From the IMG/VR virus record IMGVR_UViG_3300021961_000480, positions 1 through 28,004 of that record: a stretch of DNA of 28,004 nt; one strand, given 5' to 3'. Positions within the stretch are counted from its first letter, which is position 1. Each line of letters opens with the position of its first letter. Of the stretch, positions 9,881-25,012 are shown piece by piece. The position numbers were made by a program, and so were the translations under genes. The DNA is from a virus. Under the pieces are notes generated by a model. The model had not been told where the DNA came from, did no database searches, and was given only the letters and a program-made list of their open reading frames with translations.

Positions 9881-10351
9881 TTGGAAACAGCAACCGTCAC
9901 ACCCCTTACGCCTCTGGAGCAGAAGTGGCAGAAAGAGCGCGAAGAGAAGGGGCCAACCTTGGATGATGCGTACAGCGATGAAGGTCGTTTTGATCCTTCG
10001 TCTTTGGAAGCGTCTGTCAAAGACCGTATTCCCACACCGACTGGCTGGCGCATTGCGATCCTGCCGTACCGTGGGGCGGAGAAGACCAAGGGCGGAATTG
10101 TCCTGGCAGAGGAGACCCAGAAGCGCACACAACTGGCAACGGTTTGTGGTTATGTGCTCAAAGTGGGTGAGCTTGCTTATAAGGACGAATCAAAGTTTCC
10201 CACCGGGCCTTGGTGCGCGGAGGGGGATTGGGTGATCTTTGGCCGGTATGCCGGGTCAAGGATTTCCATTGATGGCGGCGAGATCCGTATTTTGAATGAC
10301 GATGAAATCATCGGTCGGTTAAACGACCCTGAAGACATCCTTCACATGTAA
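9881..10351 (+). CDS. GroES-like co-chaperonin (Cpn10)
   Basis: A 156-aa protein whose residues about 50-148 follow the GroES fold: TPTGWRIAILPYRGAEKTKG, the mobile loop with GGIVL at 71-75, then a GDWVIFGRYAG block at 115-125 and a final strand ending in DDEIIGRL. The GGIVL tripeptide region is what GroES uses to bind GroEL, so the protein probably caps the host chaperonin and helps fold the capsid protein, as T4 gp31 does. It has an N-terminal extension of about 45 residues, acidic and basic, absent from bacterial GroES, and lacks the usual C-terminal end. The start is a TTG at 9881 supported by a strong GAAAGGAG eight bases upstream. It sits directly before scaffold and capsid genes, fitting that role. 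Confidence 0.88.
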   Translation: METATVTPLTPLEQKWQKEREEKGPTLDDAYSDEGRFDPSSLEASVKDRIPTPTGWRIAILPYRGAEKTKGGIVLAEETQKRTQLATVCGYVLKVGELAYKDESKFPTGPWCAEGDWVIFGRYAGSRISIDGGEIRILNDDEIIGRLNDPEDILHM

Positions 10352-13381: not shown

Positions 13382-13418
13382 ACGGTACGGGGATGTGCTA
13401 CTACACAGGGGGTTTGTC

Positions 13419-13910
13419 ATGGCACGTACTACTTTCTCCGGGCCAGTTGCGTCCGAAAATGGTTTTATCAGTGTTGCTTCTACTTCTGGTAAAACACTCA
13501 CAATCAATGCTCCCGCAGCCCTTTCTGCGAATACAACCTTAGTATTTCCCAACGGTGCTGGTACTAATGGTCAACAACTGACTACAGACGGTACTGGAGT
13601 TCTTTCTTGGACCTCTGCGGGTGGTACAGGAACAGTTACGTCCGTAGGTGGAACTGGATCTGTTAACGGCCTGACCCTTACTGGTACGGTTACTTCTTCG
13701 GGTAATCTAACTCTTGGTGGTAACTTTGCTCTTGTAGCTGATACGGTAGCCAACCTTGAAGACGTTTCCAACGCGATCAATACCACTGGTAAATACACAG
13801 GCAAGATGGTTGTAGTGCTTGCTAATGGGTTAATTTTCACTGCTTCCGGTTCTGGTGACAGTGATATTTGGTATGCTTCTGACGGTACTACCACTGCAAG
13901 CCCAGTCTAA
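13419..13910 (+). CDS. Fibre-like decoration or tail structural protein
   Basis: A 163-aa, beta-rich protein. It starts MARTTFSGPVASENGF, a typical opening of small virion proteins found after the capsid gene in aquatic phages. The middle (about 68-105) carries the GTVTSVGGTGSVNG and LTGTVTSSGNLTLGG fibre repeat, which also occurs twice in the tail fibre at 20066-21973. The C-terminus is a compact strand-rich segment. The ATG at 13419 is preferred over a GTG at 13395 because CAGGGGG ends about seven bases upstream. It could be a head fibre or a tail-associated protein; the shared repeat shows module exchange between the two genes. Confidence 0.75.
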   Translation: MARTTFSGPVASENGFISVASTSGKTLTINAPAALSANTTLVFPNGAGTNGQQLTTDGTGVLSWTSAGGTGTVTSVGGTGSVNGLTLTGTVTSSGNLTLGGNFALVADTVANLEDVSNAINTTGKYTGKMVVVLANGLIFTASGSGDSDIWYASDGTTTASPV

Positions 13911-14767: not shown

Positions 14768-14922
14768 ACAAGAAACCTCCTGGGTTGTATGCCAACATCC
14801 ACGCCAAGCGTAAGCGGATAGCCGCTGGCTCTGGCGAGAAGATGCGTAAGGTTGGATCTAAAGGCGCGCCTACCGCTAAGGCGTTTATTCAGTCTGCAAA
14901 GACAGCGAAGAAAGGAAAGTAA
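14764..14922 (+). CDS. Very small basic conserved phage protein (52 aa)
   Basis: Starts at the ATG overlapping the previous TGA and ends at TAA 14920-14922. The protein opens MNKKPPGLYANIHAKRKRIA and continues AGSGEKMRKVGSKGAPTAKAF, a pattern I associate with a conserved small protein of aquatic phages (LYANIHAKR and GSKGAPT blocks). A GAGGAAAG site precedes the ATG. It is strongly basic with no cysteine. It belongs to the run of small Lys-rich proteins here. Function unknown. Confidence 0.82.
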   Translation: MNKKPPGLYANIHAKRKRIAAGSGEKMRKVGSKGAPTAKAFIQSAKTAKKGK

Positions 14923-14923
14923 A

Positions 14924-15244
14924 ATGGCTCTTGGAAAGATGATGAAGAGAATGATGGAGTCCCCTGAGTTTAAGAGGGCGATGGGTCAAGCAGGCGCTGC
15001 TAAAGGAACTGGACCTTCTGCTGGTGACATGAAAGCTGCAGAAATGGTGGCTGAAAAAAAAGGCCCTCTTAAAACTATGAATAAGCCCAGACGTGGTTTT
15101 AGAAACCTTAAACAAGCAGCGGCAGCAGCGATGGCAGCTAAACCTGCAGGAATGAAAAAAGGCGGCATGGCCGATAAATCTGGCCGTGCTATGACTCGTA
15201 AAACTGCGGACACCAAGGGCCGCGCAATGAAAAAGGGGAAGTAA
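14924..15244 (+). CDS. Small Lys/Ala/Met-rich protein
   Basis: A 106-aa protein from the ATG at 14924, one base after the previous stop and preceded by GAAAGGAAAG. The frame is open upstream, but that part shadows the 52-aa gene. The composition is dominated by Lys, Ala, Met and Gly, with a histone-tail-like C-terminus (AAAAAMAAKPAGMKKGG, then Arg/Lys-rich turns). It may bind DNA or the capsid interior; no family can be named. Confidence 0.7.
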   Translation: MALGKMMKRMMESPEFKRAMGQAGAAKGTGPSAGDMKAAEMVAEKKGPLKTMNKPRRGFRNLKQAAAAAMAAKPAGMKKGGMADKSGRAMTRKTADTKGRAMKKGK

Positions 15245-15246
15245 TC

Positions 15247-15462
15247 ATGGCTGGAAAAGGAATGGGTGCTGCTACTAAAGGTGGTGGTTGCGTCATGAAA
15301 GGCGCAAAAAACCGTATGGAATCGAATCCTGCCAGTGGCAAAACAGGCCCTGTCATGATGGCTATGGGCGGCGATGTAAGCCCCCGTAAAAAGATGGCTA
15401 TGGGCATGATGGGCGGCGGCATGATGAAGAAGTACCGCAAAGGTGGGAGCGCTTGTAAGTAA
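15247..15462 (+). CDS. Very small Gly/Met/Lys-rich protein
   Basis: A 71-aa protein of low complexity with AMGGDVSPRKK, GMMGGGMMKKYRKGG and a single Cys near each end. An AAAAAGGGGAAG site precedes the ATG and its stop overlaps the following ATG (TAATG). The GG-D/E-V piece recalls the FAxGGE motif of the giant genes at the left. Function unknown; probably a minor virion protein, by position. Confidence 0.65.
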   Translation: MAGKGMGAATKGGGCVMKGAKNRMESNPASGKTGPVMMAMGGDVSPRKKMAMGMMGGGMMKKYRKGGSACK

Positions 15463-16130
15463 TGGCTACTTCAGGAACGACAGACTTTAACCTCAGCATC
15501 GATGACCTCATTGAGGAGGCCTTCGAGCGCTGTGGTATGCGAATGACGAGTGGTTATCAACTGACTACTGCTCGTCGTTCGCTTAATCTGTTGTTCTTGG
15601 ACTGGGCCAACAGGGGTTTGAACCTTTGGACGATTGAAGAGCAGACCTTTCCTCTAGTACAGGGGGATAACGAGATCACGTTGGACTCGGACACGGTAAA
15701 CGTGCTGTCTGCTGTGATCCGTCTGCCTGCTTCCCAGGGGCCTTTGACGGACATCACGCTTGATCGTATCAGCCGTGAAGAGTATTTGAACCAGCCGGAT
15801 AAGACTACGCAGGCGCGCCCAGCACAGTTTTATGTGCAGCGTTCGGACCCTTTCCAAGTGTTCTTCTACCCGGCTGCGGATCAGCCTTATACGTTCGTGT
15901 ACTACCGTATTCGTCGGATTCAAGATGCGGGTGAGTACACCAACACAACGGATGTGAACTTTCGATTCCTGCCTTGTTTGGCCTCGGGGTTGGCCTATCA
16001 ACTGTCATTGAAGTTTGCTCCTGAGCGTATGACGGTGTTGAAGGCTATTTATGAGGAAGACTTCAACCGGGCCGCGCTTGAGGACAGGGACACGGCCAGT
16101 GTCTCTTTTGTACCTGACTACGGGCAGTAG
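15462..16130 (+). CDS. Head-tail adaptor protein 1 (P22 gp4-like role)
   Basis: A 222-aa protein starting with a helix (LSIDDLIEEAFERCGM), followed by RRSLNLLFLDWANRGLNLW, a beta domain (EQTFPLVQGDNEITL and a FYVQRSDPFQVFFYPAADQPYTFVYYRIRRI strand set) and a terminal helix with LKAIYEEDFNRA. This plan fits phage adaptors that dock under the portal, called tail tubular A or gp4-like in podoviruses. It starts on the A of the previous stop. A second adaptor with similar content follows at 16480. Confidence 0.8.
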   Translation: MATSGTTDFNLSIDDLIEEAFERCGMRMTSGYQLTTARRSLNLLFLDWANRGLNLWTIEEQTFPLVQGDNEITLDSDTVNVLSAVIRLPASQGPLTDITLDRISREEYLNQPDKTTQARPAQFYVQRSDPFQVFFYPAADQPYTFVYYRIRRIQDAGEYTNTTDVNFRFLPCLASGLAYQLSLKFAPERMTVLKAIYEEDFNRAALEDRDTASVSFVPDYGQ

Positions 16131-16132
16131 AT

Positions 16133-16483
16133 ATGGCCTTTGCAACAGGCAAATTCTCTTTTGGTCTGTGCGACTATTGTGGTCAGCGATATCCGTACCT
16201 CACGCTCAAAAAGAATTGGCGTGGTTTTATGGTGTGTCCGGAGGACTATGAGCCTAAAGAACCGCAACTATTTCCGCTTCGCTTTAGTGGCGATGCGATT
16301 GCTTTACGGGATCCGAGGCCTGATCGTACTGAACCCGTTACGATATATGTGGGCACCCCTGGTTTTTCGGCTTTTCAGAGCACGGGGACGGCGGATAACA
16401 CCAACAACATGCAACCTGAAGCGCTGAATAATCCGTTGTACATCCAGTCTCAGATTGCTCCGGTTACGGTAGTCATATCATGA
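16133..16483 (+). CDS. Small Cys-rich (possible zinc-ribbon) connector-module protein
   Basis: A 116-aa protein with C13-x2-C16 in CDYCGQRYPY and C35 in FMVCPED, three of the four ligands of a zinc ribbon; the fourth might be D38 or be missing. The block (S/R)GQRYPYxxLKKxWxGxxVCPEDYEPKxPQ is familiar from small proteins between adaptor genes of aquatic podoviruses. The rest is a Pro-rich, strand-like tail. The stop overlaps the next start (ATGA). Role unknown, perhaps a structural spacer at the neck. Confidence 0.72.
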   Translation: MAFATGKFSFGLCDYCGQRYPYLTLKKNWRGFMVCPEDYEPKEPQLFPLRFSGDAIALRDPRPDRTEPVTIYVGTPGFSAFQSTGTADNTNNMQPEALNNPLYIQSQIAPVTVVIS

Positions 16484-17136
16484 CCTTTAACGAACTTGTG
16501 ACCAACATCCGCAACTACACCGACGTAGATGCGAACGTCTTCTCCGAGTCTGTCATCAACACCTTTGTGACGATGGCCGAGAATCGTATCTTGCGCGACA
16601 TCGATCTTGATGTGTTTAAGCGAGAAGACACTGGTACGTTGTCTGCCAACAATCGCTTTTTGACGGCCCCTAGTGAGATCCTGACCCATCGTTACCTGAT
16701 GGTTGTGGTCAATGGAGAGCGTATTTTCTTAGACTTCAGAGACCAGTCTTTCATGCGTGAGTACTGGCCTGATTACACCCAGACAGGTGTACCAAAGTAC
16801 TATGCGGTGTGGGATCAAAACACATTTTCTGTGGCTCCCACGCCTGGGCAGAACTATACGGTTCAGATGGGTTACATTTACCGGCCTGCACAGGTCTCTT
16901 CGGTAAACCAAACATCATGGATAAGCACTAATGCGCCAGAAGCGCTACTTTATGCTTGCTTAATTCAGGCCTACAGCTACACCAAGGGGCCTCCCGATAT
17001 GCTGGCTTACTTTGAGAACAGCTACAAGCAGGCTATTCAAGGTCTTGGGGTTGAACAGACAGGCCGTCGTCGTCGTGATGAGTACAGGGATGGGATGCTT
17101 CGTATCCCTCTCAAATCAGAGTCTCCGGGGCCCTAA
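16480..17136 (+). CDS. Head-tail adaptor protein 2
   Basis: A 218-aa protein with MTFNELVTNIRNYTD, then VINTFVTMAENRILRDIDLD, a beta domain including VPKYYAVWDQNTFSVAPTP and YTVQMGYIYRP, and a helical end with LLYACLIQAYSYTKGPPDM. This is a well-recognised phage adaptor layout (DUF-type gp4/tail-tubular A relatives). Together with the first adaptor it suggests two stacked or functionally split neck components. The start overlaps the previous stop. Confidence 0.82.
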   Translation: MTFNELVTNIRNYTDVDANVFSESVINTFVTMAENRILRDIDLDVFKREDTGTLSANNRFLTAPSEILTHRYLMVVVNGERIFLDFRDQSFMREYWPDYTQTGVPKYYAVWDQNTFSVAPTPGQNYTVQMGYIYRPAQVSSVNQTSWISTNAPEALLYACLIQAYSYTKGPPDMLAYFENSYKQAIQGLGVEQTGRRRRDEYRDGMLRIPLKSESPGP

Positions 17137-17139
17137 ACC

Positions 17140-17574
17140 ATGGCATTTACAGGAAATTACGTCTGTGATTCCTTTAAAGAGCAACTCTTTAAAGGGGTTC
17201 ATAACTTTGGTCCTGGCGGGGATCAATTTAAGATTGCTCTGTACAACAACAATGCCTCTTTTACAGCGGCTACGACGGCGTATACAACGGCCAATGAGAT
17301 GCCTGCCTCGGGCAGTTATACGGCAGGCGGAGGCAGTTTGGTGTCTCTTGCTCCTGTTGTATCGCAGGGAATTGTGCTGATCTCATTCGTTGATTTTGTA
17401 TTCACGGGAGTAGATTTCGGTCCTTTTGGAGCCTTGATCTACAACTCGTCGGTGGCGGGAAATCCCGCTGTTTGCGTGATGGACTTTGATGGTGAGAAGT
17501 CTGCAGTCAACCAGAACATGGAGATTCGCTTCCCTCCGGTCACGACAACGTCTGCCTTCTTAAGGTTCCGCTGA
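17140..17574 (+). CDS. Small beta-rich structural protein, paralogue A
   Basis: A 144-aa protein containing DQFKIALYNNNASF, NEMPASGSYTAGGGSL and FGALIYNSSVAGNPAVCVMDF. The same pattern, with FKMALL, GGYVTGG and YAVIYQSGGKLLCFC, recurs in the gene at 18442-18888, so the two are distant paralogues. Proteins of this kind occur in tail-fibre regions of aquatic phages. A perfect 11-base hairpin lies 31 bases inside the gene. Its stop overlaps the next ATG (TGATG). Confidence 0.7.
   Translation: MAFTGNYVCDSFKEQLFKGVHNFGPGGDQFKIALYNNNASFTAATTAYTTANEMPASGSYTAGGGSLVSLAPVVSQGIVLISFVDFVFTGVDFGPFGALIYNSSVAGNPAVCVMDFDGEKSAVNQNMEIRFPPVTTTSAFLRFR
17171..17195 (+). other. Perfect inverted repeat, 11-base arms, 3-base loop
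   Basis: CCTTTAAAGAG (17171-17181) is exactly complementary to 17185-17195 with CAA as the loop. It encodes FKEQLFKG near the start of paralogue A. No T tract follows. It is the most stable-looking hairpin inside a coding region here. Confidence 0.6.
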
Positions 17575-18440
17575 TGTTCACCTCTTTTCATTCTGATCCT
17601 CCAAAGATTGTTATAGCACCTATTGAGCCAAAACTAGAGTGGATTGCGGCTGAAGAAGTGGAAATGAAGGGGTCTCTAAACATTGAACTAGAGACCATGA
17701 AAAGCCACGTTGAACAGAATATCCGCAAGGGCTTTCAGCAGGTAGTACCTCATCCGACGAACGAGGTTGAGGTGATGATCGTAGGCGGTGGCCCGTCGTT
17801 GAAGGACCAGATCGAAGAGATCCGGTTATTACGTGCTTCGGGCGTCAAGCTGATTGCGCTTAATAATGCTTACCAATATTGCATTGACCAGGGAATCATG
17901 CCCTCGGCCTTGATCATGGTCGATGCTCGGGATTTCAACCTCCGGTTTGTGAAAAACACGATCCCGGATTGCAAGTACTTTATTGCATCGCAATGTCACC
18001 CATCTGTCTTTGATCGGTTAGAGGCTGTCAAAGAGCAGACATATATTTGGCACACAGGAGCGGAAGAAATCGTTGATATTTTGACCGCGTACTACCCTAA
18101 ATGCTACCCAGTTCCTGGTGGTTCAACGGTCTTGCTCAGAGCGATCCCGTTGTTTAGAATGTTAGGATTCAAGCGATTTCACGTCTTTGGATGTGATTCT
18201 TGCTTGCAGGACGGCCAACATCATGCCTACGATCAAAAGGAAAATGATGCCCAGATGGTGATTCCGGTGCGGGTGAACGGTAAGGTTTTTTACTGTCATC
18301 CGTGGATGCTTTCCCAGGCCCAAGAATTCATTGATCTTGTGGGGTGCATGGGGGATGTTATGGAACTAGATATTCACGGCGGGTTACTTCGTCAGATTTT
18401 GGAATCAGGCGCTGACCGCGCCGCCTTAGAGGAGATTTAA
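17574..18440 (+). CDS. DUF115 / MptE-like (MAF-like) enzyme
   Basis: A 288-aa protein. VMIVGGGPSLKDQIEEI with GGGPSL at 71-76, followed by LIALNNAYQYCIDQGIMPSALIMVDAR (107-119 region), matches the nucleotide-binding half of the DUF115 family, which includes archaeal MptE pterin diphosphokinase and bacterial MAF flagellin-glycosylation proteins. Further blocks are YFIASQCHP, PGGSTVLLRAIPLFRMLGFKRFHVFGCDSC and a His-rich stretch GQHHAYDQK. The last GF-x-x-FHVFGCDS block is typical of the family's second half. Likely activities are sugar or diphosphate transfer; which one cannot be said. It sits between two paralogous structural genes and overlaps the first, so modification of a virion protein is a reasonable inference. 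Confidence 0.72.
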   Translation: MFTSFHSDPPKIVIAPIEPKLEWIAAEEVEMKGSLNIELETMKSHVEQNIRKGFQQVVPHPTNEVEVMIVGGGPSLKDQIEEIRLLRASGVKLIALNNAYQYCIDQGIMPSALIMVDARDFNLRFVKNTIPDCKYFIASQCHPSVFDRLEAVKEQTYIWHTGAEEIVDILTAYYPKCYPVPGGSTVLLRAIPLFRMLGFKRFHVFGCDSCLQDGQHHAYDQKENDAQMVIPVRVNGKVFYCHPWMLSQAQEFIDLVGCMGDVMELDIHGGLLRQILESGADRAALEEI

Positions 18441-18441
18441 A

Positions 18442-18888
18442 ATGGCTGCTTCTGCATGGCAACTTTACAACAGTGGTAAGCGTTACATTGGTAACGGCAC
18501 CATTGAGCTTGGTGTAGGTAATTTTAAAATGGCCCTTCTTACGAGTGCCAGTAATACTTCCACGTTTACCCTGAGCACTTTTGCTTCTTTGACGAGTGAG
18601 ATCTCGGCAACGGGGGGATATGTGACTGGGGGTAAGGCACTAAACCCTGCTACAGGGCAATGGACAACCGGCGCTTCGGCAAAGCAGATGAAGTTTACCT
18701 ATTCGACTATTGGGGTGACTTTCACGGCTTCTGGTGCTCCGTTGACCAACGTCAAGTACGCGGTGATTTATCAGTCTGGCGGTAAACTTTTGTGCTTCTG
18801 CCAATTATCGAGCACTCAATTTACTGTTGCGTCGCCAAATACTTTGACGGTCCTTCCGGCTGCTACTGGTGTATTTACCTTGACCTAA
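18442..18888 (+). CDS. Small beta-rich structural protein, paralogue B
   Basis: A 148-aa protein similar in layout to the gene at 17140-17574 (NFKMALLTSASNTSTF, ISATGGYVTGGKAL, YAVIYQSGGKLLCFC). It is Thr/Ser/Gly-rich and strand-forming. A GAGGAGA site precedes the ATG. Its stop sits in the left arm of a hairpin that also covers the next start. Probably a tail or fibre-associated virion protein. Confidence 0.7.
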   Translation: MAASAWQLYNSGKRYIGNGTIELGVGNFKMALLTSASNTSTFTLSTFASLTSEISATGGYVTGGKALNPATGQWTTGASAKQMKFTYSTIGVTFTASGAPLTNVKYAVIYQSGGKLLCFCQLSSTQFTVASPNTLTVLPAATGVFTLT

Positions 18889-18899
18889 GAGTCTTAGGT
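18883..18899 (+). promoter_or_regulatory. Stop/start-spanning hairpin (7-base arms, 3-base loop)
   Basis: ACCTAAG (18883-18889) is exactly complementary to 18893-18899. The left arm holds the stop of paralogue B and the right arm overlaps the GTG start at 18898. It could gate initiation of the next gene or couple it to upstream translation; this is inference. Confidence 0.5.
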
Positions 18900-20055
18900 G
18901 GCAACCGAAACCGGCTGGAGTAGAGGCAGTTGGGGTTCCTACGGCTGGGGAGTAGGAATACTTATCGACCCCGCAGTCCAAGGGGTCGCGCTGCTGGGAT
19001 ATGCTCCAAGTATCCGCCAGGATTTATTTATAACTCCGGGCTCGGGAGCACTTTCTCTTGATGGTCACGCGCCAACTTCCTTAGTTGATATCCGTGTAAC
19101 ACCGGATGTTGTAAATCTTGTTTTAGCTTCTCAAGCACCTGAGACTCGAACAGATCTTTTCATAACTCCTGCGGCCAATGATGCAGTACTGGTAGGAAAC
19201 GCGCCTGGAATAGAAAGATCTTCTGTATTAACTCCGGCGACAGGTGCAGCAGCTTTTACAAATGAAACTCCCACTCTAGACAGCGGAATTGTCCCAAGCG
19301 TTGGAGAGGTTCTCTTACAGGGGTTTAGTCCCTTAGTAGAGAGTGGGATATTTCCGGGAGAAGCTTCTGTTGTCCTCTTAGGACATCCCCCCTTCTTAGG
19401 GATTACAGCAACTCCAGCAACAGGTAACTTATCCTTTGACGGAAAGTTCCCTGTAATAGATAGAACAGTAAGCACAGAAACGGGAGCAATTGTTCTCCAG
19501 GGACACAGTCCTTTTGTAGACCTAGGGGTTGTGCCCGGCACTGCTTCTCTTTCGTTGCTGGGGTCTCCACCCAGTGTTTCTTCTACTATAGAACCTTCAA
19601 CGGGCGATCTTTCTGTAGCGGGAAGTGTTCCGGTAATTAACCAGGGTAGTCAAACACTAACAGGTACATTGAGTCTCCTTGGCGCTGCGCCAAGTTTAGC
19701 GACTGTGGTCTTAGTACCTACCAGTCAGCTTGCTATAGAAGGGTATGCTCCAGGGTTTTCTAGAGGAGATGTTGTAACTCCTACAGGCGGGGCCAGTATT
19801 TTAGGGTCGTCGCCTAGTGTTGTTGTAGCTGGAACGATTTTTATCCCAGGAACAGGTAATGCTTCTTTTGTGGGAAGCGCTCCTGGAACTGCCATAAGTA
19901 GAGTGATTAGGCCTCCGACAAGGTCGTTGGTAGTTGCAGGAGTTAGACCTGCCCTTCAGAACCCCAACTGGGTTATTATTGATGATAGTCAAACGCCTAA
20001 CTGGGTGGCTATTGAGGATAGTCAAACGCCTAACTGGCATCCAGCAGCGGCTTAA
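18898..20055 (+). CDS. Tandem short-repeat (solenoid-like) virion protein
   Basis: A 385-aa protein beginning with a Trp/Gly-rich piece (GWSRGSWGSYGWG), then about 16 repeats of 20-22 residues with the pattern TP-x-TG-x-L-x-L-x-G-x-(A/S)P. Regular small and hydrophobic positions suggest a beta-solenoid or stacked-hairpin fibre. The C-terminus carries NPNW followed by two NW-containing units; bases 19984-20004 and 20017-20037 are identical, a 33-base period. It starts at a GTG with a poor ribosome site. It lies directly before the tail fibre, so a fibre or adhesin role is likely. Family not recognised. Confidence 0.7.
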   Translation: MATETGWSRGSWGSYGWGVGILIDPAVQGVALLGYAPSIRQDLFITPGSGALSLDGHAPTSLVDIRVTPDVVNLVLASQAPETRTDLFITPAANDAVLVGNAPGIERSSVLTPATGAAAFTNETPTLDSGIVPSVGEVLLQGFSPLVESGIFPGEASVVLLGHPPFLGITATPATGNLSFDGKFPVIDRTVSTETGAIVLQGHSPFVDLGVVPGTASLSLLGSPPSVSSTIEPSTGDLSVAGSVPVINQGSQTLTGTLSLLGAAPSLATVVLVPTSQLAIEGYAPGFSRGDVVTPTGGASILGSSPSVVVAGTIFIPGTGNASFVGSAPGTAISRVIRPPTRSLVVAGVRPALQNPNWVIIDDSQTPNWVAIEDSQTPNWHPAAA

Positions 20056-20065
20056 GGAGCTTTAG

Positions 20066-21973
20066 ATGGCAAGTACATATTCCACCCTCAAAATCGAACT
20101 TATAGGTACGGGTGAGCAGTCTGGCACCTGGGGCACAACGACCAACACCAATCTCGGTACGGCAATAGAAGAAGCGATTGTAGGCTCTGCCGATGTGTCC
20201 TTTTCGAGTGCCGATGTAACCCTAACGCTCACAGACGTTAATACGACGCAGGCAGCGCGGCATGTGCGCCTTAATCTGACAGGTACTTCTGGCGGCGCGA
20301 GAAACCTTATCCTGGGTTCTGGATGCCAGATCGACAAGCCTTACCTGATCAATAATGGCCTTGCAGACACAGTAACGGTCAAGAACACCACGGGCACTGG
20401 TATCGCGGTTCCGGCTGGTAAGACCATGTGGGTCTACAACAATGGAACCAACGTCGTTGATGCGGTGACTCATCTCACATCGCTTACGCTTGGATCTGCT
20501 CTTCCAATTACCTCTGGGGGTACTGGGAGCACTTCTACTACCTTTGTGAACCTCACCACGAACGTAACGGGAACGCTACCTGTTGCTAATGGTGGCACAG
20601 GCATTACTTCTTTTGGCACAGGCGTAGCTACGGCTCTTGGGCAAAACGTCTCAGGATCTGGAAGTTTTGCGTTGACAACTTCTCCTGTTTTCACCACCCC
20701 TAGTCTCGGCACTCCATCTGCGGCTACCCTTACTAACGCCACTGGATTACCTTTGTCTACGGGGGTTACGGGAACTTTGCCTTTAGCCAATGGGGGTACT
20801 GGCGCGGCGCTTACTGACCCAAACGCAGATCGCATTTTATTTTGGGATGATTCTGCTGGAGCAATGACTTTCCTTACCGCAGGCACAGGACTTTCTATTA
20901 GTGGTACAACAATAACTGCCACGGGTTCTGGTGGCACGGTTACGTCCGTAGGCGGAACTGGAACTGTTAATGGTATTACTCTCACTGGTACGGTTACTTC
21001 TTCGGGGAACCTTACCCTTGGTGGCACATTGTCAGGGGTTAGTCTTTCGACGCAGGTTACAGGTACTCTTCCTGTAGCAAATGGCGGTACGGGGCAAACC
21101 ACATACACTGACGGTCAGCTACTTATCGGTAACACAACTGGAAATACCTTAACTAAGTCTACGCTTACTGCTGGTAGCGGTATTTCTATTACTAACGGTG
21201 CTGGATCAATTACGATTGCGACCTCTGGGGGTGGAGGTACTGTAACCTCTGTTAGTGGTACAGGGACAGTAAATGGGCTTACCTTAACTGGTACTGTAAC
21301 CACTTCTGGAAGTCTTACTCTTGGTGGAACTTTGTCGGGGGTGAGTTTGACCTCTGCGGTTACCGGTACCCTTCCCTTGGCTAATGGCGGTACTGGCGCG
21401 TCTTTAACAGATCCAAACGCAGATCGCATTTTATTTTGGGATGACTCGGCTGGGGCAGTCACTTGGCTTACCGTAAGCACGGGATTGAGCTTAAGTGGGA
21501 CAACGCTTACCAATAGCGGCGTCACTTCCTATCCTGGTGCTGGCATTGCGGTCTCTACGGGATCTGCCTGGACCACTTCTTTAACTGCTCCTTCAGGAAC
21601 AATTGTCGGTACAACGGATACGCAGACGTTGACCAATAAGCGGGTTAACCCAAGAATCCAAACGGTATCAAGTGCTGCAACCATAACCCCTACAGGCGAT
21701 ACGGCAGATGAATATACGGTTACCGCGCTTGCTACTGGAGCCACTATTGCTGCTCCTTCAGGGTCACCTGTAGATGGACAGAAGCTAGTTTTGCGTATTA
21801 AAGATAATGGCACTGGTCGAGCGCTTACTTGGACTACTTCTTCTGGGGCTTACAGGGCTGTAGGAGTTACATTACCCGCTACAACGACCGCTTCTAAGGT
21901 GATCTACATCGGATGTATTTATAATTCTCAGGACACTTTCTGGGATGTCGTGGCAGTCGCACAACAGGCATAA
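20066..21973 (+). CDS. Repeat-rich tail fibre protein
   Basis: A 635-aa protein. The N-terminus (STLKIELIGTGEQSGTWGTTTNTNLG) is the common attachment end of aquatic phage fibres. From about residue 145 come repeated (V/G)TGTLP(V/L)ANGGTG units, two GTVTSVxGTGTVNG units and two copies of the DPNADRILFWDDSAGA segment. The C-terminus (VDGQKLVLRIKDNGTGRALTW) looks like a compact tip domain. A TAAGGAG site lies seven bases before the ATG. It probably recognises the host surface. Long DNA repeats within it invite recombination and copy-number change. Confidence 0.85.
   Translation: MASTYSTLKIELIGTGEQSGTWGTTTNTNLGTAIEEAIVGSADVSFSSADVTLTLTDVNTTQAARHVRLNLTGTSGGARNLILGSGCQIDKPYLINNGLADTVTVKNTTGTGIAVPAGKTMWVYNNGTNVVDAVTHLTSLTLGSALPITSGGTGSTSTTFVNLTTNVTGTLPVANGGTGITSFGTGVATALGQNVSGSGSFALTTSPVFTTPSLGTPSAATLTNATGLPLSTGVTGTLPLANGGTGAALTDPNADRILFWDDSAGAMTFLTAGTGLSISGTTITATGSGGTVTSVGGTGTVNGITLTGTVTSSGNLTLGGTLSGVSLSTQVTGTLPVANGGTGQTTYTDGQLLIGNTTGNTLTKSTLTAGSGISITNGAGSITIATSGGGGTVTSVSGTGTVNGLTLTGTVTTSGSLTLGGTLSGVSLTSAVTGTLPLANGGTGASLTDPNADRILFWDDSAGAVTWLTVSTGLSLSGTTLTNSGVTSYPGAGIAVSTGSAWTTSLTAPSGTIVGTTDTQTLTNKRVNPRIQTVSSAATITPTGDTADEYTVTALATGATIAAPSGSPVDGQKLVLRIKDNGTGRALTWTTSSGAYRAVGVTLPATTTASKVIYIGCIYNSQDTFWDVVAVAQQA
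20819..20850 (+). repeat. 32-base direct repeat, copy 1
   Basis: Identical over 32 bases to 21413-21444; both encode the PNADRILFWDD segment of the fibre. They are embedded in longer imperfect repeats. Confidence 0.85.
21413..21444 (+). repeat. 32-base direct repeat, copy 2
   Basis: Second copy, 594 bases downstream of the first and in the same frame, so recombination would delete or duplicate 198 residues without a frameshift. Confidence 0.85.
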
Positions 21974-22288: not shown

Positions 22289-25012
22289 ATGGCAGATAGA
22301 TATTGGCGGGGCGGGACAGGAACTTGGAACAGCACCAATACAACTAACTGGTCTGCTACGAACGGGGGTACTGGCGGGGCTTCTGTGCCTACATCTGCTG
22401 ATAATGTGTTTTTCACCAGTTTATCTGGTGGGGGTACCTGCAGCATAAGTGGTACTGTAAATGCCCGAGACATGAATATGACTGGGTACACAGGCACTCT
22501 CGGAGGCAGTAGCGGTACGCTTAATGTCTTTGGTGGTCTAATAATGGCTACGGGCGGTAGCTGGACTTACGCAGGGGCTACTCGCTTTGTAGGGGGTACC
22601 GCTGGCACATGGACTACTAATGGTAAAACCATGAATGGGTCTGTGCTAATACAAAAGAATCCCGGCGCGTATATAACCCTTGGTGGCGCTATAACTGTAA
22701 ACAACACCGTTCAACTATCTTCATTAAGCTTTCCGTGGCTTGACTTGTCCACATACACGCTCACCTGTAAGTACTTTAATGAAGCAAGCAATTCAAATTC
22801 AATATTGGTTTTTGGATCTGGGTCAAAGATAGTTTGTAATGAGACAGGAAACACACTAAATGCTTTTAGCTGGGGAGCGGGTACTTACACTGGTACAGGT
22901 AGGGTAGAAGTACTAACACCACCCTCAGGGTCTACAACTAATATAACCGCTAGTGGCGGTACGGGGCTAACTGCACCCCCTGTTTACCTTGTTGCTTCCG
23001 GGACGGGTACTATTAGTGCTATTACAAGTTTTCTTTATATTGGTGCGGGTAATTATACGGTAGGAGGTAATTCACAGCTTTATAAAGGTTTTAACGTAGA
23101 TCCTGGATTTACAGGTACTGTTCAGTCTCCTTTATATGTAATCCCCTCAGATGCAACAGGTGCTACCGGTCAGGGTACTGTAGGCCTTACAACAATTTAT
23201 GTGAGTTCAGGCTCTACTTTATATCCTTTTACGTTATCTGGAGCACTTACAGTACAGAACATAGACATACAAGGAAGTTCTAAGTTAGTGCTTTCTTCCT
23301 ACACTTTGACCTGTACTACTGCCTTTTTTCTGTCGGGCACTGCCCCAGAACTGGATATGGGGTCTGGCACCATCTATTTATCCAATACGGGTTCCAATAC
23401 CGCTTTTGATGTTTGGGCAGCAACTAGCTTAACACTTAATAGGGGTACGGGAAAAGTTGCTCTCACAACACCCACATCAGGGCAGACAAAGACTGTACGG
23501 GTGCCCAGCGGTCACACAGAAGCCCAAGCATTTAACTATGAGGTTGTTGCTGTTGGAACTGGAAGCACTATATCTTTTGCGGGTGCATCAGGTGGATCTA
23601 TATGCAATGACCTAACTCTTGCCGGTGGATCTTATACACTTACTTCTTTTTCTAATTTTACTATCTACGGGAATCTTACTGTAACTGGAAATATAACTTC
23701 ATATACAACCACAACGCAGTATTTATTTTCCAAGTCCTCTGGAACACAGACAATAAACTGTGTCGGTACTTTTGGAAGAAGTGGTTCCACTGTTGTGTTT
23801 TCAGCGACTGGTGCTAATTGGTCTCTTGCCGGGGATACACCTTTTGCTTCTGCTACTTCACTTAATGGAGGAACGCTTGACTTAGGTGGTTACAGACTTA
23901 CGACAGCTTCTTTTTCAAGTAGTCTCTCCACTGCCAGGACGATAGCTTTTGGCTCCTCTGGCGCGATTAGACTTACTGGGTCTGGTACCGTTTGGACCAC
24001 AGCTACGGCTACTAATTTAACTACAACCGGCACTAATAAATATATTGAACCCAACTTAAATTCTGCTCAAACACTGACTTTTGGAACGGGGCTTACAGAA
24101 GCACAAATCATGGATGTAAGTGTGCCTTCCACGGCGTCAAATAATATATTGACTATCACTGGTCGAGTAAGAAATTTAACCTTTGCCAACGTCGCCTATA
24201 CGGTAGCAAATACTGCAATTACTTTTTATGGCGATGTGACCATTCTTGGGACCACCCCGACGTTTACTGCTGGTGCGAACGCATGGACGTTTGCGGCTAC
24301 TTCCGGTACAAAAACAATTACTACCAACGGTGAGTTACTTGATTTTCCGTTAACCATAAATAGTCCAGGCGCTACATTATCCCTTGGAAGCGCTCTCACC
24401 ATTGGTTCAACTCGACTATTGACCGTGACCGCAGGGACTTTAGACTCAAATAATTACAGCCTTACCATAGGCAGTCTCAGTTCAAATGGTAGCGGAGTTA
24501 GAGCATTTACTTTTGGAAGCTCTACTTGGACACTCAATGGCGCTTCGTGGGATACTTCTACCCCTGTAAACTTAACCATTAATCGTGGCACGGGCAAGAT
24601 AAGCATTGCTTATACGGCAAGTACCTTCAACTTTAATGGTGGTGGATTAACTTACCCCATATTGGATCTCGCTACGACACAAACCGTGGGTGTTACAAAC
24701 ACATCTAACACTTTCGCAGATATTCAAAGGTCGATCGCTAATTCAGCCGGAATCACTTTTGATTTCATTACCTATGTTGAGGCTTTCACGCTAAAGGGCT
24801 TTTCTGCTGCGGCTAGAACTTCGGTGACGGGACCTATATCCAAATCAAGCGGAATCATTGATTCGGATTATTTGCTAGTGACCAACTCCGCCGCCCAGGG
24901 TGGCGCTACTTGGTATGCGGGTGCAAATTCGGTCAACAACGGCGGCAATACAGGCTGGATTTTCACCGCCGCTCCGTCTAACAGCGGCAACATGCTCATG
25001 CTCTTTTCATAA
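22289..25012 (+). CDS. Large beta-rich tail fibre / spike protein
   Basis: A 907-aa, Thr/Ser/Gly/Asn-rich protein that opens MADRYWRGGTGTWNSTNTTNW followed by SVPTSADNVFF, a recognisable start of large aquatic-phage surface proteins. The body is a long series of short strands with LxLGxGTxT(L/V)T spacing, as in a beta-helix or autotransporter-like passenger. The segment INRGTGKI(S/A) occurs twice. The last 60 residues (GGATWYAGANSVNNGGNTGWIF) look like an end cap. A TTAGGAG site precedes the ATG. Codon third positions are more A/T than in the head genes. Probable host-range determinant; no enzymatic site seen. Confidence 0.78.
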   Translation: MADRYWRGGTGTWNSTNTTNWSATNGGTGGASVPTSADNVFFTSLSGGGTCSISGTVNARDMNMTGYTGTLGGSSGTLNVFGGLIMATGGSWTYAGATRFVGGTAGTWTTNGKTMNGSVLIQKNPGAYITLGGAITVNNTVQLSSLSFPWLDLSTYTLTCKYFNEASNSNSILVFGSGSKIVCNETGNTLNAFSWGAGTYTGTGRVEVLTPPSGSTTNITASGGTGLTAPPVYLVASGTGTISAITSFLYIGAGNYTVGGNSQLYKGFNVDPGFTGTVQSPLYVIPSDATGATGQGTVGLTTIYVSSGSTLYPFTLSGALTVQNIDIQGSSKLVLSSYTLTCTTAFFLSGTAPELDMGSGTIYLSNTGSNTAFDVWAATSLTLNRGTGKVALTTPTSGQTKTVRVPSGHTEAQAFNYEVVAVGTGSTISFAGASGGSICNDLTLAGGSYTLTSFSNFTIYGNLTVTGNITSYTTTTQYLFSKSSGTQTINCVGTFGRSGSTVVFSATGANWSLAGDTPFASATSLNGGTLDLGGYRLTTASFSSSLSTARTIAFGSSGAIRLTGSGTVWTTATATNLTTTGTNKYIEPNLNSAQTLTFGTGLTEAQIMDVSVPSTASNNILTITGRVRNLTFANVAYTVANTAITFYGDVTILGTTPTFTAGANAWTFAATSGTKTITTNGELLDFPLTINSPGATLSLGSALTIGSTRLLTVTAGTLDSNNYSLTIGSLSSNGSGVRAFTFGSSTWTLNGASWDTSTPVNLTINRGTGKISIAYTASTFNFNGGGLTYPILDLATTQTVGVTNTSNTFADIQRSIANSAGITFDFITYVEAFTLKGFSAAARTSVTGPISKSSGIIDSDYLLVTNSAAQGGATWYAGANSVNNGGNTGWIFTAAPSNSGNMLMLFS

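Follow-up and report, generated by a model that had tools for sequence, protein, structure and literature searches.

A DUF115 enzyme gene with a predicted Maf fold and its phrog_644 partner form a portable two-gene cassette in the tail region of uncultured phages

The Maf/PseD/PseE flagellin glycosyltransferases carry a PF01973 domain and work beside a structural surface protein, and they share this domain and the predicted fold with the phage enzyme analyzed here (E). Maf enzymes attach glycans to Ser/Thr, and CMP-KDO is among the donors that they can use (PMC11339370). The archaeal 6-hydroxymethylpterin diphosphokinase MptE (8sd5) belongs to the same Pfam family as E, and the GT42/GT29 sialyltransferases have a related Rossmann-type fold, with no significant sequence match to E. 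Glycosylation of phage virions is known from the mycobacteriophages Che8 and Rita (Freeman et al., 2023, as cited in PMC11256854). In these phages, phage-encoded glycosyltransferases decorate virion proteins, the enzymes lie near the genome end and the glycan is on the capsid (PMC11256854). The glycosylation of phage tail proteins has been little studied, and a search of the open-access literature for DUF115/MptE-like phage proteins returned nothing relevant.

The window, i.e., the whole stretch of DNA that was analyzed, was a 28,004-base viral contig (IMG/VR record IMGVR_UViG_3300021961_000480), which also encoded a portal, a head protein, a holin and an endolysin. The second adaptor, A, E, B, and the 385-aa gene described next were on the + strand. 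Two SU10-type tail adaptors were found on the 5′ side, the second of which (16480..17136; PF24175, 5.3e-26) is the core neck gene that precedes the cassette, and repeat-rich and fibre-like proteins were found on the 3′ side. Gene A (17140..17574; 144 aa), a core neck/tail gene, matched phrog_644 over nearly its full length (7.1e-9). It was followed by E (17574..18440; 288 aa), a DUF115/MptE-like putative glycosyltransferase with a predicted Maf fold, in the short form without a methyltransferase domain, and by B (18442..18888; 148 aa), the partner and proposed substrate of E, which also matched phrog_644 over nearly its full length (1e-13). A 385-aa repeat-rich gene (18898..20055) formed the right border of the cassette. 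A and E overlapped, as the first-pass annotation had described, by 1 nt (TGATG, 17572–17576), and its placement of B two bases after E was correct if counted from last to first base, the spacer between the E stop and the B ATG being a single base. An AGGAG within the 3′ end of E (18430..18434), seven bases 5′ of the start of B, was read from the sequence as the probable ribosome-binding site of B. The identification of E as a DUF115/MptE-like enzyme held in the profile search, in which PF01973 scored 69.2 bits (4.9e-19) over a curated cut-off of 34.6. The claimed paralogy of the two flanking genes was also borne out: besides the common phrog_644 assignment, A and B were 32% identical over 109 aa (E 3e-5), with a profile-profile probability of 96%, and judging from these comparisons they are true but old paralogues.

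The two SU10-type adaptors (15462–16130 and 16480–17136) are themselves paralogues and share the neck region with A and B, which therefore holds two paralogue pairs. Elsewhere in the window, a GroES co-chaperonin-like ORF (9881–10351; phrog_3188, 8e-18) was located between the portal and head genes, and an ORF right behind the head gene (13395–13910) had a 62% identical segment in common with the 635-aa fibre-like repeat protein at 20066–21973. Two small ORFs (130 and 71 aa) at 14852–15462 had a very high content of Lys, Met, and Gly. The region was not enriched in promoter-like sites.

A scan of IMG/VR with E detected 75 loci with proteins 62–97% identical to it, and the carriers of E-B were many uncultured phages, mostly aquatic. 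B was directly 3′ of E in all 70 loci whose contig ran past E; in the remaining five, the contig stopped within or just past E. The gap between E and B was 1 nt in 69 of the 71 measured loci, including the window. A was upstream of E in 75 of 75 loci and adjoined it directly, save for three in which an adaptor lay in between. The repetition of the gene order and of the 1-nt spacer across loci indicated that the arrangement did not arise by chance. Conversely, scanning with B detected 80 loci, all of which had E immediately 5′ of B, and E was likewise present with more divergent B proteins. Many loci were near copies, and removal of identical E+B pairs left 73; both scans covered close relatives, so the linkage statement applies to one subfamily. 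Within this subfamily, the obligate unit is E+B, a two-gene cassette behind core gene A. The first-pass annotation had described an enzyme sandwiched between two paralogous structural genes and expected the idea to fall if the enzyme were found mostly without them; in the loci found, a structural paralogue always adjoined E. The sandwich itself is real, since A, E, and B abut, but only E and B are obligate, as A freely occurs without either. Relatives of E were not found in named phages, nor in sequenced bacterial species in one scan limited to two short patterns.

The profile of A recovered at least 593 relatives in IMG/VR. Neither E nor B was near any of the best 80 of these, which were examined up to 5 kb per side, and this ruled out A as a member of the obligate unit. 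A is a general neck/tail gene that is common in phages without E, and its divergence tracked the adaptor, not E. The earlier proposal that the two paralogues are twin substrates of the enzyme is therefore unlikely, and B is the better candidate. In the closest relatives of the window, A still travels with E-B, so that in some lineages the exchange may start at the border between the adaptor and A. Two phages (L223 and L225) had an adaptor 81–82% identical to that of the window, a different A (38%) ~280 nt further on and no E-B, which is a swap at the adaptor-A border. In HTVC023P, the gene gp58 adjoins A and was considered as a possible counterpart of B, but it proved not to be B-like.

E-B was mostly absent from phages whose tail adaptor was 75–82% identical to that of the window. 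Of the adaptor relatives with at least 75% identity that carried A and had more than 2.5 kb of downstream sequence, 39 contained neither E nor B, five had both and none had one alone. In E-B-negative phages, the homologue of the 385-aa gene began 8–11 nt past A in 13 of 16, and in E-B-positive phages it was directly behind B in 113 of 118, both counts including near copies and only phages with such a homologue. The E-B-negative arrangement is a clean empty site. Across the 73 loci, pairwise identities were highly rank-correlated between adaptor and A (rho 0.73) and between E and B (0.71), and all cross pairs fell at 0.28–0.44. On the adaptor tree (FastTree, approximate), the presence of E-B changed at least three times on well-supported branches. 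B was up to 92% identical to that of the window in phages whose adaptors matched only 36–38%, and within the window's own adaptor clade five loci (L005, L008, L217, L219, and L221) carried B at 59–75%. Forcing this clade, which had been delimited by adaptor identity prior to construction of the E+B tree, to stay together in that tree was 74 log-likelihood units worse (AU p 1.4e-6), and vertical inheritance of E-B in the clade was rejected. The correlations, the tree changes and the AU test indicated that E-B moves as a pair between phage backbones; it is a portable pair exchanged between otherwise different phages.

The AlphaFold model of E (31 rows, pLDDT 84) matched the Magnetospirillum Maf 5mu5 best (Z 21.3, rmsd 2.9, 223 residues on 5mu5 244–503), followed by MptE (8sd5; Z 15.2), SteA (12.6) and, at Z 8–10, the GT29/GT42 sialyltransferases Cst-I, Cst-II, ST8SiaIII, and ST6GalNAc2. 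According to this model, E is nearest in fold to the Maf flagellin glycosyltransferase, ahead of MptE and the sialyltransferases, and takes the fold of the central Maf domain. With 288 aa, however, it matched only the middle of 5mu5, the full Maf architecture comprising N- and C-terminal domains and ~630 residues, and its neighbors were phage neck, tail and fibre genes, with no flagellin partner. Because neither the full architecture nor the flagellin context was found, E is not filed as Maf. The nearest NCBIfam model was FlagModPseD (flagellin modification PseD) at 19.7 bits, far below its cut-off of 670, and the similarity to phrog_4603 (sialyltransferase) was not significant (E 0.3). GGxPS, N97, D117, GGST, GCDSC, HHAY and several other residues were invariant or nearly so among 73 E relatives, and position 242 was H in 38 and N in 35 of them. 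We take these motifs, by their spacing and not by superposition, to fall where Cst-II binds the CMP-sugar, and position 242 to be the general-base position on the same comparison; the spacing is presumably similar to that of the GT42/GT29 sialyltransferases in general. Six Cys and two adjacent His (residues 103, 133, 141, 207, 210, 216, 217, and 241) were invariant in 73 of 73 relatives, and the other proteins around E were Cys-poor. The CxxC...HH...C of E could be a metal site, one not known from Maf or MptE. A role as a defense system was rejected, as none of E, A, and B had a PADLOC hit.

Roughly half of the E proteins were long forms (~475 aa) in which a class I SAM methyltransferase (PF13649/PF13489) makes up the N-terminal part, and on the E+B tree the long and short forms were separated by one change on a branch of modest support (80). 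The "mad2" hit of the methyltransferase half in PADLOC (1.2e-7) was taken as general methyltransferase similarity. In the siphophage ctUtU524 (MW202621.1; L302 5983–7367), a separate methyltransferase 40% identical to the long-form domain came next after the major capsid gene; behind it lay the gene of a GGAPSL protein, whose MptE-like match was weak and sub-threshold.

B contained 27% Ser+Thr, and 20 Ser/Thr positions were kept in at least 95% of its relatives; T20, T95, S97, S123, T134, and T136 belong to the conserved residues of this kind. Its model was poor (pLDDT 59), which limits it to a source of leads; the three best structural matches were all phage tail pieces, namely the GP4 fibre/fibre-tail adaptor (Z 6.7), the HFTV1 tail (5.9) and the phage 7-7-1 tail fibre (4.0). 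The beta structure previously attributed to B agreed with this low-confidence model. Foldseek alone gave no significant match for the model of B, and PDB sequence searches with A and B returned only low-scoring antibody and deaminase matches, which were taken as chance. A distant homologue of B was placed behind minor tail genes in mycobacteriophage Pollywog. B is probably a tail-surface or fibre-attachment protein, as far as the model can be followed.

The obligate pairing and the exchange of E and B suggest that E chemically modifies B, a presumed virion protein. In the mechanism proposed here, E-B would serve as a late-gene cassette lying behind core gene A and ahead of the next gene of the tail. 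E would take a CMP-activated sugar from the host and attach it to Ser/Thr of freshly made B. The glycosylated B would then enter the tail as a protein of its surface or of fibre attachment. Long forms would additionally use their fused SAM methyltransferase to add a methyl group there, to either the sugar or the protein. CMP-KDO is generally made by Gram-negative hosts, and for a host of this kind it would be the obvious candidate donor. A search of 12 related records of 34–70 kb, some of them fragments, revealed no CMP-sugar synthetase, which was consistent with a host-derived donor; each of these records had exactly one PF01973 gene. We infer the activity, its donor and acceptor, the location of B in the virion and the benefit, which would be altered recognition or stability.

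The Maf-like fold, the weak, sub-threshold similarity to PseD, the invariant candidate catalytic residues, the methyltransferase fusion in the long forms and the richness of B in Ser+Thr with its conserved Ser/Thr columns were counted in favor of this mechanism. On the other side, the residue at the presumed general-base position varies between H and N, the Maf N- and C-terminal domains are missing, and the fold is common to MptE and SteA and thus not limited to transferases. In addition, B shows a degree of conservation that would be unusual in a protein of surface recognition, which was counted against such a role. The reading as a whole, in which E, a Maf/DUF115-fold glycosyltransferase in a portable E-B cassette, modifies B with a host CMP-sugar, is about as likely as not. 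More tentatively, E-B could be a self-contained "writer plus substrate" module that is exchanged as a unit and decorates the tail with a sugar derived from the host and sometimes capped by methylation.

E might instead modify another virion component, such as one of the fibres (20066–21973 or 22289–25012) or the capsid, with B only a partner, e.g., an attachment adaptor. The downstream fibre-like proteins were also Ser/Thr-rich (29–31%), which was counted against a specific role of B as acceptor; the best structural matches of the B model were fibre-attachment or fibre parts; and no B homologue was found in the ctUtU524 stretch, where the methyltransferase and the weakly MptE-like gene adjoin the major capsid gene. 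However, E is locked to B and not to the fibre genes, which vary across E-B loci while B stays 72–97% identical, and this explanation was considered unlikely. It is also conceivable, although quite improbable, that E does not act catalytically on a protein but is a dedicated assembly chaperone of B, its enzyme fold having been turned to the folding or placement of B. Pairs of a structural protein and its chaperone are typically linked one to one and tightly coupled in translation as well, and the presumed general base is not fixed. Nevertheless, a chaperone would not account for the near-invariance of the GGxPS, N97, D117, GGST, and HHAY-type residues or for the second enzyme domain, the methyltransferase, in many E forms, and both A and the B-like homologues in mycobacteriophages manage without E. 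An enzyme that alters the host envelope or its glycans, for instance against superinfection, with B adjacent only through a shared late operon, would fit the lipooligosaccharide sialyltransferases Cst-I and Cst-II among the fold relatives, but it seems very improbable, as the pair moves jointly between backbones and neither gene occurs alone in the subfamily, which is needless for a host-directed enzyme. A pterin diphosphokinase with true MptE activity, or another metabolic kinase, is hardly credible despite the Pfam name and the fold match to M. jannaschii HPPK/MptE, since the Maf fold is closer and nothing in a metabolic role calls for a lock to a single structural gene.

If modification of B by E is correct, the mobile enzyme-substrate pair names both the writer and its target, and it would be testable in Escherichia coli with two genes. 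The cassette could be a source of a small Maf-like enzyme whose acceptor is defined, and the methyltransferase fusion suggests a capped sugar. The empty-site relatives are natural controls for the effect of the cassette.

Compared with Maf, E is less than half as long and lacks both terminal domains, and its partner is a phage phrog_644 protein instead of flagellin. Half of the E relatives have a fused methyltransferase, and no CMP-sugar synthesis genes were found in the related phage records. E differs from MptE in that it lies in a phage late operon, is locked to a structural gene and has a predicted fold nearer to Maf, and from the GT42/GT29 sialyltransferases in that its candidate general base is H or N. 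The model of B aligned 117 residues with the 136-aa chain of the fibre-tail adaptor of Ralstonia phage GP4 (8jou), but there was no sequence match, and the Z obtained with this low-confidence model is in the range of common arrangements. In contrast to Che8 and Rita, the enzyme of E-B belongs to a different family and forms a mobile cassette together with a single small tail-region gene. The first-pass annotation knew of no described system of this layout, and we likewise found no Maf-like enzyme locked to one tail-region protein as a moving two-gene cassette in the open-access literature. Phage virion glycosylation and Maf enzymes are already known, and the element that appears to be new is the pairing of a Maf-like enzyme with a tail-region protein in a cassette that moves between phages.
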